Shown: piece by piece, positions 13,246 to 16,419 of the stretch
How positions within the stretch are numbered: the first letter of the stretch is position 1
Layout: every line of letters starts with the position of its first letter
Translations under genes and position numbers: made by a program
The notes under the pieces: generated by a model
Database searches by the model: none
What the model saw: the letters and a program-made list of their open reading frames with translations, nothing else
What the model was told of the DNA's origin: nothing
DNA from: Bacillota bacterium
GTDB lineage: Bacteria > Bacillota > Sulfobacillia > Sulfobacillales > Sulfobacillaceae
Direction of reading: 5' to 3'
Assembly (NCBI GenBank): GCA_023511625.1
Contig: JAIMBD010000002.1
Location: 248,001-312,000 of the forward strand
Length of the DNA: 64,000 nucleotides

Positions 13246-13262
13246 AAAGGAGGAACCTTCTC

Positions 13263-14111
13263 GTGCAACGGCCGTCCTCGGTGGAAGTGGTGACATGGCT
13301 GAACCTCGACCTTAGAGGCGAACACGACGCCATCGTGCACTACCTGCAACACGCTTGGGTGCTCAGCCCTTGGGGGCCTACCATCATGGCCATTGCCCGC
13401 GACGAGATGCGCCACCTGAAGTGGCTGGCGCATACCATCGTCCGGCTGGGCGGTACCCCGGACCTGACGCCTCCCCCCATCCGTCGCGATGCCGATCCGC
13501 TGGCCCAAGACGAGGCCGCCGAAGCCGTAGCCATCGAACAGTACCGCCGGCATCGAGCGGATATTCCCGACCCTGCCATTCAGTCCCTACTCGATCGCAT
13601 CGTAATCGACGAGGAAGATCACCTGCGCCAATTTCGCGCCCTGCGGGAGAAAGCAGGTGCCGTACCGCTGGCCCCATCCTCCGAGTTGGACCCCGAAGCC
13701 CGGGCATTCCAACCGTCCCTGACGCAGTTAATGGGGTGCGAATACGCCGCCGTGCTGTCGGCCTTACACCGCGCTTTCCAACGGCTCCCCGCACCGCGGA
13801 CCGGCATCGACTGGGAAGACCAGGCGGTCGAAGAGATGCATCACCTGAGCTGGGCGGCCGAGACCTTGGCGCGTCACGGCCTGACGCCGGAATGGCCCGA
13901 ACCCGCCCCTGGAGACAGCCGGGATGAGGCCCAACGATGGGAAATGTTGGCGCGGGCCGCCCATGCCTGGGATCCCGAAGCGGCGGCGCTGGCGCACCGC
14001 GCCGCACGGCGAGAAGCCCTCGAGGCCCATCCGCCGCGCCGCGACCGCAGTGCCACCGTCGGTTCTCTGGCTACTGGTCGGGATTGGGTCGAGGAGGAGG
14101 TCCGCCCCTGA
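13263..14111 (+). CDS. Encapsulated ferritin-like iron cargo protein, 282 aa
   Basis: A helical di-iron protein. Carboxylate/His pairs appear at E20 with E48xxH51 and at E92 (region 84-92) with E117xxH120, the four-helix ferritin-like set. A third set follows at E160 with E190/E191 and H193/H194, so the protein carries one and a half ferritin-like units. Near the C-terminus, residues 264-269 read ATVGSL, resembling the TVGSL-type loading peptide of Firmicute iron-mineralising encapsulin cargo, followed by 13 further residues. The encapsulin shell gene overlaps its stop codon. The inferred role is iron oxidation and storage inside the shell. GTG at 13263 has AAAAGGAGG nine bases upstream. Confidence 0.85.
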   Translation: MQRPSSVEVVTWLNLDLRGEHDAIVHYLQHAWVLSPWGPTIMAIARDEMRHLKWLAHTIVRLGGTPDLTPPPIRRDADPLAQDEAAEAVAIEQYRRHRADIPDPAIQSLLDRIVIDEEDHLRQFRALREKAGAVPLAPSSELDPEARAFQPSLTQLMGCEYAAVLSALHRAFQRLPAPRTGIDWEDQAVEEMHHLSWAAETLARHGLTPEWPEPAPGDSRDEAQRWEMLARAAHAWDPEAAALAHRAARREALEAHPPRRDRSATVGSLATGRDWVEEEVRP

Positions 14112-14953
14112 TGGACGTGTTGATGCGCCAAGAGGCGCCGCTCGAAGACGCCGACTGGGACCGCCTCGACCAGGCGGTGATCGCGGTAGCCCGCCGCATT
14201 TTGATCGGCCGCCGATTCTTGCCGCTCTATGGGCCGTTGGGCGGGGCAGTGGAGGTGCTCCCTGTCAACCATTACCACGGATGGGACCAGGGGCGGATGG
14301 GGACGACCGGCGATCAACCGGAACCGGTGGCGTGGGCCGGTCGCACCTACCTGCACTTGCCGCTCTTGTACAAGGACTTCGTGCTGTTCTGGCGCGACAT
14401 GGAGCAAAGTCGCCAGGGCGGCATGCCCCTCGACGTGGGGGCGGCCCAGGCTGCGGCCGCATTCGTGGCCGAGGCCGAAGACCACCTCATCTTCCATGGC
14501 TCGGCTGCGCACGGCGTGCCAGGGTTGTTGACGGTAGAAGGGCGCCACGTCCTGCCTATGGGTGATTGGACCGAGTCGGGGCGAGCCTTCGCCGACGTGG
14601 TCCGCGCCGTCGCGCATCTGACATCGGCCGGTTTTTATCCGCCCTATCAAACCGTGGTGGGGCCATCTGCCTACGCCGAATTGCACCGACTGTACGGCAA
14701 CAGCGGGCTGCTCGAGGCTGATCAAATCGCAAAGCTCACCCAGCGGGCGGTGCTGGTCACTCCGGTGCTGGATGAACGCACGGCCGTGGTCGTCGCCCTC
14801 GGCGAAGAGAACTGCGATCTCGTGGTCGGCTACGACCTTACCGTGGCCTACTTGGAGACCAGCGCGATGAATCCGCGCTTTAGGGTGTTGGAAACCATCG
14901 CGCCACGCATTCAACGCCCCGGAGCCATCGCAGTCCTGACCCGCACGGCATAA
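14111..14953 (+). CDS. Family 1 encapsulin shell protein, 280 aa
   Basis: HK97-fold nanocompartment shell subunit. The opening ADWDRLDQAVIAVARRILIGRR, the LYGPLGGAVEVL turn, LPLLYKDFVLFWRDMEQS, the E-loop neighbourhood, EDHLIFHGSAAHGVPGLL, and the late SAMNPRFRVLETIAPRIQRP block all align with family 1 encapsulins. The LYKDFVLYWRD-type segment is closest to the large Quasibacillus thermotolerans shell (T=4). The cargo-binding groove is formed by the N-terminal helix. The ATG overlaps the cargo stop (TGATG), ensuring coupled synthesis. A hairpin follows immediately. Assembly size cannot be read from sequence alone. Confidence 0.95.
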   Translation: MDVLMRQEAPLEDADWDRLDQAVIAVARRILIGRRFLPLYGPLGGAVEVLPVNHYHGWDQGRMGTTGDQPEPVAWAGRTYLHLPLLYKDFVLFWRDMEQSRQGGMPLDVGAAQAAAAFVAEAEDHLIFHGSAAHGVPGLLTVEGRHVLPMGDWTESGRAFADVVRAVAHLTSAGFYPPYQTVVGPSAYAELHRLYGNSGLLEADQIAKLTQRAVLVTPVLDERTAVVVALGEENCDLVVGYDLTVAYLETSAMNPRFRVLETIAPRIQRPGAIAVLTRTA

Positions 14954-14982
14954 CCCCCGGCGGTCCAAATCTCCGCCGGGGG
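14954..14982. terminator. Hairpin terminator between convergent encapsulin and glnA
   Basis: CCCCCGGCGG (14954-14963) and CCGCCGGGGG (14973-14982) form a perfect 10-bp stem with a 9-nt loop, directly after the encapsulin stop. A weak T-rich stretch follows on the plus strand. It could serve both the encapsulin operon and glnA, whose stop is at 15004. Confidence 0.65.
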
Positions 14983-15003
14983 TGGTCTTCGGTTCCGTAG
15001 CGG

Positions 15004-16419
15004 TTAGATGTTATAGTACAGCTCGAACTCCATGGGGTGCGGCCGGAGGTTGACCTGCGCCACCTCCTGGGTCCGCTTGTAATCGATCCAGGTCTGCAGC
15101 AGGTCTTCCGAGAAGACGCCTCCGGCCAACAGGAACTCGTGATCCTGCTCGAGCGCCCGCAATGCCTCCTCCAACGAGCCCGGGACGCTCTGGATCGAAG
15201 CCTTCTCTTCCGCGCTCAAGGTGTACAAGTTTTTGTCGATGGGGCCAAACCCGAGCTGGCGCGGGTCTAGTCGCCGGCGGATTCCGTCTAATCCCGCCAG
15301 CAGGATAGCGGCAAAGGCCAGATATGGGTTGCTGGTCGAGTCTGGCGTGCGGAACTCGATCCGGCTGGCCTGGGGCCGGTCGGTGACCGGAATCCGGACC
15401 GCCGCCGAGCGGTTGCCGCGCGAAAACACCAAATTCACCGGAGCCTCATACCCGGGCACCAGCCGTCGGTACGAGTTGGTCGACGGGTTGGTCAGCGCCA
15501 GAAGGGCCGGGGCGTGGCTCAAAATGCCCCCGATGTAGAACAACCCGATCTCCGACAGGTTCCCGTAGGCGCCGGCCTGGAAGAAGAGCGGGTTGCCGCC
15601 TTTCCACAGCGAGCTGTGGACGTGCATTCCACTGCCGTTGTCGCCAAAGAGCGGCTTCGGCATGAAGGTTACGGTCTTGCCGTGCTGGTGAGCCACGTTC
15701 TTCAAAATGTACTTGTACAGCAGGACGGTATCGGCCATTGCCGTCAAGGTGTTAAAGCGCAGGTCGATCTCCGCCTGCCCCGCCGTTGCCACCTCGTGGT
15801 GGTGCATCTCGACGCGCACTCCCGCTCGCCTGAGTGCCTGGACCATGGCCGTGCGCAACGCGTTGGTGGCGTCAAGCGGCGGAACCGGGAAGTAACCCTC
15901 CTTCGGCCGGATGGTGTGCCCGAGGCCCCCCTCTTTTCCAGAATTCCAGTGGCCTTCTTCCGAGTCGACGGCGTAACCCGACTGGTGCCCTTGGTTGAAG
16001 TACCGGACAGTGTCAAAGATGAAGAATTCCAGTTCCGGCCCCCAGTAGGACACGTCGGCGATGCCGCTCTCCTTCAGGTACGCCTCCGCCCGACGGGCAA
16101 TGGTGCGCGGGTCCCGCCCATAGGGGTTCCCTGCGGGGTCGGTCACGTCGCACATGATGCTCAGGGTGGGGACGCTACCAAAGGGGTCGATCACCGCCGT
16201 GGAGGGGTCTGGCACCATCACCATGTCGCTCTCTTCAATGCCCCGAAACCCCCGGATGCTCGACCCGTCAAAGGGGATACCGCGCTGCAACAGCTCCTCG
16301 TCGACTTCCGCCGCCGGAATGGTCAAGTGTTGCCAAACTCCTGGTAGGTCCACGATGTGGAAGTCGACCATTTCGATCTGTTGCTCCCGAATCAGGCGTA
16401 TGACTTCCGCGACGTTCAA
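15004..16419 (-). CDS. glnA: Type I glutamine synthetase, 471 aa
   Basis: ATP-dependent amidation of glutamate, the main ammonia assimilation step. Visible motifs are PFDGSSIRGF near residue 50, SYWGPELEFFIFD (metal-binding Glu), the NGSGMHVHSSLW loop, ALTNPSTNSYRRLVPGYEAP (ATP site), and RIEFRTPDSTSNPYLAF. The length and the KNLYTLSAEE segment, which carries a Tyr at the adenylylation position, suggest the beta subtype rather than the shorter alpha form common in Bacillus. The start is TTG at 16419, supported by AGGAGG seven bases upstream; there is no nearby ATG or GTG. No glnR is adjacent. Confidence 0.95.
   Translation of the reverse strand: MNVAEVIRLIREQQIEMVDFHIVDLPGVWQHLTIPAAEVDEELLQRGIPFDGSSIRGFRGIEESDMVMVPDPSTAVIDPFGSVPTLSIMCDVTDPAGNPYGRDPRTIARRAEAYLKESGIADVSYWGPELEFFIFDTVRYFNQGHQSGYAVDSEEGHWNSGKEGGLGHTIRPKEGYFPVPPLDATNALRTAMVQALRRAGVRVEMHHHEVATAGQAEIDLRFNTLTAMADTVLLYKYILKNVAHQHGKTVTFMPKPLFGDNGSGMHVHSSLWKGGNPLFFQAGAYGNLSEIGLFYIGGILSHAPALLALTNPSTNSYRRLVPGYEAPVNLVFSRGNRSAAVRIPVTDRPQASRIEFRTPDSTSNPYLAFAAILLAGLDGIRRRLDPRQLGFGPIDKNLYTLSAEEKASIQSVPGSLEEALRALEQDHEFLLAGGVFSEDLLQTWIDYKRTQEVAQVNLRPHPMEFELYYNI

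Follow-up and report, generated by a model that had tools for sequence, protein, structure and literature searches.

A gene pair for an encapsulin shell and its cargo

The window analyzed here, a stretch of 64,000 nucleotides from contig JAIMBD010000002.1 of a Sulfobacillus family genome, contains adjacent genes for a ferritin-like cargo protein and an encapsulin shell (Table 1). The 2 open reading frames overlap by 1 base within the sequence TGATG, in which the cargo stop codon (TGA, 14109-14111) meets the shell start codon (ATG, 14111-14113), as proposed in the initial annotation of this DNA. On the evidence below, we consider it highly probable that the 2 genes make up an iron-storage system built on a family 1 encapsulin, with a cargo of the two-bundle class referred to as "Bfr" or "Flp+Flp".

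The shell protein was assigned to family 1 of the HK97-type encapsulins by PF04454 (E 9e-68) and the NCBIfam model encap_f1 (E 8e-78), with both curated cut-offs passed. The closest solved shells were EncA of Myxococcus xanthus (E 4e-71) and 9i8e, and the T=4 shell of Quasibacillus (6nj8) was also matched (E 2e-62). The nearest solved shells include both T=3 (EncA) and T=4 (Quasibacillus) particles.

The host genome of 2.59 Mb, which is 97% complete, contained 1 shell gene and a single match to PF00210, namely the cargo, in a search that covered the Pfam Ferritin family and did not survey other ferritin-like families. Apart from this gene pair, the genome appears to lack a store of the Pfam Ferritin type. 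A genome from the same genus (G001) likewise contained a single PF00210 match.

Table 1. Features of the encapsulin locus, with positions in the window (pLDDT, predicted local distance difference test)
Feature	Position	Strand	Description and evidence
Shine-Dalgarno-like AAGGAGG ahead of the cargo GTG start	13247..13253	+	Sequence
Cargo gene	13263..14111	+	282 amino acids, tandem bacterioferritin-like protein, GTG start; PF00210 E 1.8e-9 (bundle 1), 9viw E 1.5e-23
Bundle 1, residues 6-131	13278..13655	+	Four helices, complete di-iron site; AlphaFold2 pLDDT mostly >80
Bundle 2, residues 144-255	13692..14027	+	Shortened, partly decayed ferritin-like bundle; hhalign to bundle 1, four low-pLDDT helices
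Encapsulin targeting peptide core TVGSL, residues 265-269	14055..14069	+	Conserved only in shell-adjacent homologs
Family 1 encapsulin shell gene	14111..14953	+	280 amino acids; profile matches, closest solved shells
11-bp G+C-rich hairpin, lying between the shell gene and the convergent gene downstream	14953..14983	+	Folding, consensus scan

The cargo protein contains 2 four-helix bundles

AlphaFold2 placed 8 long helices ahead of the cargo tail. The helices of bundle 1 (residues 6-33, 35-61, 79-100, and 104-131) were mostly modeled with high confidence, and those of bundle 2 (residues 144-173, 184-204, 219-233, and 238-255) had pLDDT values near 60. When family profiles of the first and second halves were compared with hhalign, the alignment covered all 4 helices (probability 98, E 2.7e-13) and paired E48-M49-R50-H51 with E191-M192-H193-H194, with bundle 2 gapped in the loop and around helix 3. 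The top structural match of bundle 1 was the mini-bacterioferritin 9qq5 (Z 19.9, root mean square deviation 1.7, 125 residues), and bacterioferritins matched it with Z values of 18 to 20.

A Pfam search with bundle 2 of the window cargo alone gave no ferritin match, whereas the second half of an Armatimonadota homolog (L012) matched PF00210 (E 1.1e-8), so that the homology of the bundles rests on the family and not on this sequence alone. It was also noted that 2 homologs, L007 and L071, contained 2 PF00210 stretches each. Based on these comparisons, the cargo is predicted to consist of 2 homologous four-helix bundles in tandem, the second of which is partly decayed.

Metal ligands and methionines in the 2 bundles

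The di-iron ligands of bundle 1 were identified as E20, E48/H51, E87, and E117/H120, accompanied by Y27, Y94, and a methionine in the heme position, Met49. All of these except Y27 were invariant across the aligned relatives. These positions, together with the shell family, support the suggestion in the initial annotation of an encapsulin operon with a probably iron-oxidizing, ferritin-like cargo that exceeds a standard ferritin domain in length. The 3 carboxylate/ExxH sets listed there could be retained for E20/E48-H51, E117-H120, and E160. However, the helix-3 ligand is E87 (in the pattern E-x6-Y94) rather than E92, which varies freely, and the pair E190/H193 should be read as E191/H194, the former resulting from a coincidental in-register EEMH.

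Bundle 2 retains E160, E191/H194, and Met192, but half of its ligands have been lost: the canonical helix-3 carboxylate is gone, and ExxE (residues 251-254) replaces ExxH. In an alignment of 12 rows, E160 and H194 were invariant and E191 nearly so; 4 of the 19 shell-linked relatives, however, have A, L, or M instead of E191. Met192 was kept throughout the alignments, even beside these replacements. The third set is thus conserved at E160, M192, and H194, and since the other ligands of the second bundle are lost it is best described as a vestigial second site.

Helix 3 of bundle 2 is shortened and lacks the canonical carboxylate within the Sulfobacillus family, while helix 4 contains ExxH in all 14 paralogs without a shell gene, mostly ExxQ in the shell-linked proteins, and ExxE in the window cargo. 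The full ligand set of bundle 2, including E-x6-Y and ExxH, is present in the outgroup sequences L071 and L074. As judged from these sequences, bundle 2 appears to decay stepwise in this family. A tandem cargo linked to a shell in a different family of Bacillota, L074 (genome G253), apparently has both di-iron ligand sets in full, which makes it more promising as a cargo with two fully active sites.

The targeting peptide and the shell are inherited together

The motif TVGSL, interpreted as a loading peptide in the initial annotation, lies 13 residues before the C-terminus of the cargo within a predicted disordered tail (residues 261-282, pLDDT <50). This interpretation is borne out by its distribution. 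TVG was found in the last 5 to 28 residues of all 19 intact shell-adjacent cargo proteins of the family, usually as WTVG, and in none of the 14 shell-less paralogs (Fisher p 1.2e-9, a value that ignores relatedness, for which the tree is fairer). The tryptophan ahead of TVG is replaced by alanine in the window cargo (ATVGSL). Five shell-linked outgroup cargo proteins (L012, L071-L074) contained T(V/I)GSL, so that TVG or TIG was present in 24 of 24 intact shell-adjacent cargo proteins. The 14 shell-less paralogs (L021, L026, L027, L030, L032, L034, L036-L041, L065, and L066) lack the peptide and end at or shortly past helix 4.

The non-terminal position of the peptide, highlighted as a novelty in the initial annotation, is not new: up to about 25 residues follow TVG in this clade, and in Myxococcus the native peptide, PLTVGSLRRGG, likewise has residues beyond GSL (PMC7925596).

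In the phylogeny, 13 of the paralogs formed a single supported clade, while the paralog from genome G028 was placed among the shell-linked proteins, which requires 2 changes. No shell reading frame was identified in the 655 bases between the G028 cargo gene and the end of its contig, and no shell was found in that genome. If the shell-linked state is ancestral, as suggested by the outgroups, the shell and the peptide have been lost together at least twice.

Several other gene states were observed. Two genomes from a sister family of the same order (L090, L091) also carry a paralog without shell and peptide. Genome G026 contains adjoining decayed fragments of shell and cargo genes (L069, 719-1482) and has kept a paralog without the peptide, and the shell-adjacent cargo frame in genome G022 (L067) is broken by an in-frame TAA, representing either a pseudogene or an assembly error. 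In several cargo genes of the Sulfobacillus family (L003 5986, L004 5983, L005 5986, and L006 2034), none of the codons ATG, GTG, or TTG occurs where the start is expected; an ATC or ATT codon that is plausibly spaced from a Shine-Dalgarno-like sequence suggests a rare start codon. Homologs outside the family were rare, with matches in only 8 genomes in a draw of 299 Bacillota genomes.

Comparison with known encapsulin cargo proteins and ferritins

The two-bundle "Bfr" cargo of family 1 encapsulins was described by Andreas and Giessen 2021 (PMC8346489). For the Flp+Flp proteins, Eren et al. 2024 reported 1 conserved ferroxidase center in the first bundle and variable centers in the second, and likened the cargo to a bacterioferritin dimer (PMC11202242). 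The window cargo shares with this class the 2 four-helix bundles per chain, the complete site in bundle 1, the variable bundle 2, the disordered tail with the targeting peptide, and the adjacent shell gene, and at the sequence level it would thus belong to the class by every feature checked (bundles, sites, peptide, and adjacent shell). It differs from the outgroup members in that bundle 2 is more decayed, with helix 3 shortened and ExxE for ExxH, and in the alanine instead of tryptophan before TVG. The initial annotation had suggested a distinct encapsulated iron-storage type; the class is indeed distinct from EncFtn and IMEF, but it was already described in 2021 (PMC8346489) and reviewed in 2024 (PMC11202242).

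A deposited structure named "Bacterioferritin" (9viw, 306 amino acids) is likewise a tandem protein that aligned in both halves, and its C-terminus, RFTIGGLRED, resembles a targeting peptide. It is a distant relative of the window cargo (phmmer E 1.5e-23), with SMFH in the second half where most relatives have EMxH. Our literature search identified no published work on 9viw or on any encapsulin from Sulfobacillus.

Bundle 1 shares 35% identity with the mini-bacterioferritin of Ca. Methanoperedens (9qq4/9qq5), for which E16, E49/H52, E91, E124/H127, Y23, Y98, and the heme ligand Met50 have been reported (PMC13168243), and the 6 metal ligands, the tyrosines, and the methionine in the heme position are common to both. 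Unlike the window cargo, the mini-bacterioferritin is a single bundle with no C-terminal extension. Of the signature given for mini-bacterioferritins, His29, Gly34, and Met52 in alignment numbering and no terminal extensions (PMC13168243), the methionine is present in the window cargo (M49), whereas His29 corresponds to Ala31 and a C-terminal extension is present.

The Quasibacillus IMEF system resembles the window in its TVGSL-type peptide and family 1 shell (PMC6668986). However, IMEF is a Dps-like single bundle without ExxH and with a site between 2 monomers (PMC11202242), while the window cargo has 2 bundles and ExxH ligands. Also in contrast to the IMEF system, no Bfd-type ferredoxin partner was found when the host genome was searched for one. 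EncFtn (FLP-TP) is a two-helix domain of about 100 residues, unlike the window cargo, which reached 30 of the 90 bits required by the EncB_fam model and 15 of the 125 bits required by ferrit_encaps. In Myxococcus xanthus, the source of the closest solved shell, the peptide LTVGSL is followed by further residues, as in the window, but EncB and EncC belong to the two-helix EncFtn type (FLP-TP) and assemble into decamers.

Sequences flanking the gene pair

The initial annotation had placed a terminator after the gene pair. A strong 11-bp G+C-rich hairpin is located there (centroid -26 kcal/mol, z -3.1), but it has no U run and was not called in a scan for consensus terminators; it is possible that it acts as a weak terminator. 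A scan for sigma-70 promoters identified none. The next gene, at 15004-16419 on the minus strand, is glutamine synthetase-like and convergent with the encapsulin pair, with no sign of a functional link.

A model for the encapsulated cargo and its alternatives

We suggest that the cargo and shell proteins would be translated together from the overlapping genes, whereafter the WTVGxL-type peptide of the cargo (here ATVGSL) would bind the inner surface of the shell and assembling shells would enclose the cargo. Loading by the peptide is well supported by comparison with relatives, and IMEF shells are empty once the cargo tail containing TVGSL has been removed (PMC6668986). Ferrous iron would enter through the shell pores, bundle 1 would oxidize it at its di-iron site, the only complete one in the protein, and ferric mineral would accumulate inside the shell. 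The ligands in bundle 1 argue strongly, by comparison with characterized ferritins, for a ferroxidase activity, and storage of an iron mineral is the expected role because no other protein in the genome matched the Pfam Ferritin family. Bundle 2 would be a catalytically decayed partner, the chain corresponding to a covalent version of the bacterioferritin dimer, and may be kept for pairing with bundle 1, possibly with a heme between Met49 and Met192 that would supply electrons for iron release.

The presence of a heme is speculative and is suggested by the paired, conserved methionines M49 and M192. In the mini-bacterioferritin study, the heme methionine was described as absent outside Bfr and mBfr (PMC13168243). 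A more specific version is tentative and, in our view, rather unlikely: the cargo would be an asymmetric covalent bacterioferritin dimer in which bundle 1 oxidizes iron, while bundle 2 no longer has an iron site and persists to hold a bis-methionine heme at the interface, and the shell-less paralogs would be its free counterparts, derived by the joint loss of shell and peptide. If true, this encapsulin would come with its own route for supplying electrons to iron release.

Some observations limit the confidence in this model. Modeled alone, bundle 2 reached only low confidence (pLDDT 69.5, predicted template modeling score 0.40), and with this low-confidence model Foldseek gave no match below E 1 and structural comparison gave Z values of at most 6.7 to a mixture of Dps proteins, copper-storage proteins, and designed bundles. 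Moreover, a methionine in the E-M-x-H position is also present in some non-heme ferritins, such as FtnA, so that its conservation is a lead and no proof of heme.

It is very improbable that the cargo is instead a new ferritin of one and a half units, as the initial annotation had it, with a full bundle and a half-unit in which E160 and the following ExxH complete a third, intersubunit iron site as in EncFtn. The conservation of E160, H194, and to a lesser extent E191 would fit such a site, and the EncFtn site is built from 2 half-bundles (PMC11202242). However, structure prediction of the cargo alone returned a second set of 4 helices past residue 140, not 2, these align with the first half along their full set, the outgroups hold the complete second ligand set within 1 bundle, and E191 is replaced in 4 of the 19 shell-linked relatives. 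We therefore rejected the half-unit on the helix count and the profile-profile alignment.

A cage within the cage has a better, though still less than even, chance of being correct. The tandem chains would form their own closed ferritin sphere inside the shell and mineralize iron within it, with 6 chains giving a 12-bundle sphere like that of mini-bacterioferritin or 12 chains giving 24 bundles. Bundle 1 is closest to the 12-mer mini-bacterioferritin, neither bundle is predicted to end in a fifth helix, and a 12-chain cage was proposed by Eren et al. 2024 (PMC11202242), but contacts within such a cage may be disrupted by the short helix 3 in bundle 2, and the signature residue His29 is replaced by Ala31. 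We find it unlikely that the system mainly serves in oxidative-stress defense, with di-iron oxidation consuming peroxide or oxygen and the stored iron as a by-product, since a genome of this completeness yielded no other match in a search limited to the Pfam Ferritin family, and storage would thus be expected of the cargo.

Implications for encapsulated iron storage

Members of Sulfobacillus are acidophilic iron oxidizers, and the host lineage is related to them. As read from the alignments and the phylogeny, what appears to be new in this analysis is the joint loss of peptide and shell, the stepwise decay of bundle 2, and the invariance of the heme-position methionine in both bundles. Within encapsulin iron storage, two-bundle bacterioferritin cargo proteins have rarely been studied, and the literature treats their need for a shell as an open question (PMC8346489, PMC11202242). 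The Sulfobacillus family provides a natural comparison, with close relatives that have or lack the peptide and shell and a joint loss that would have occurred at least 2 times. With the graded decay of the second site and the persisting methionine, the role of bundle 2 and the presence of heme may become direct tests in small operons.
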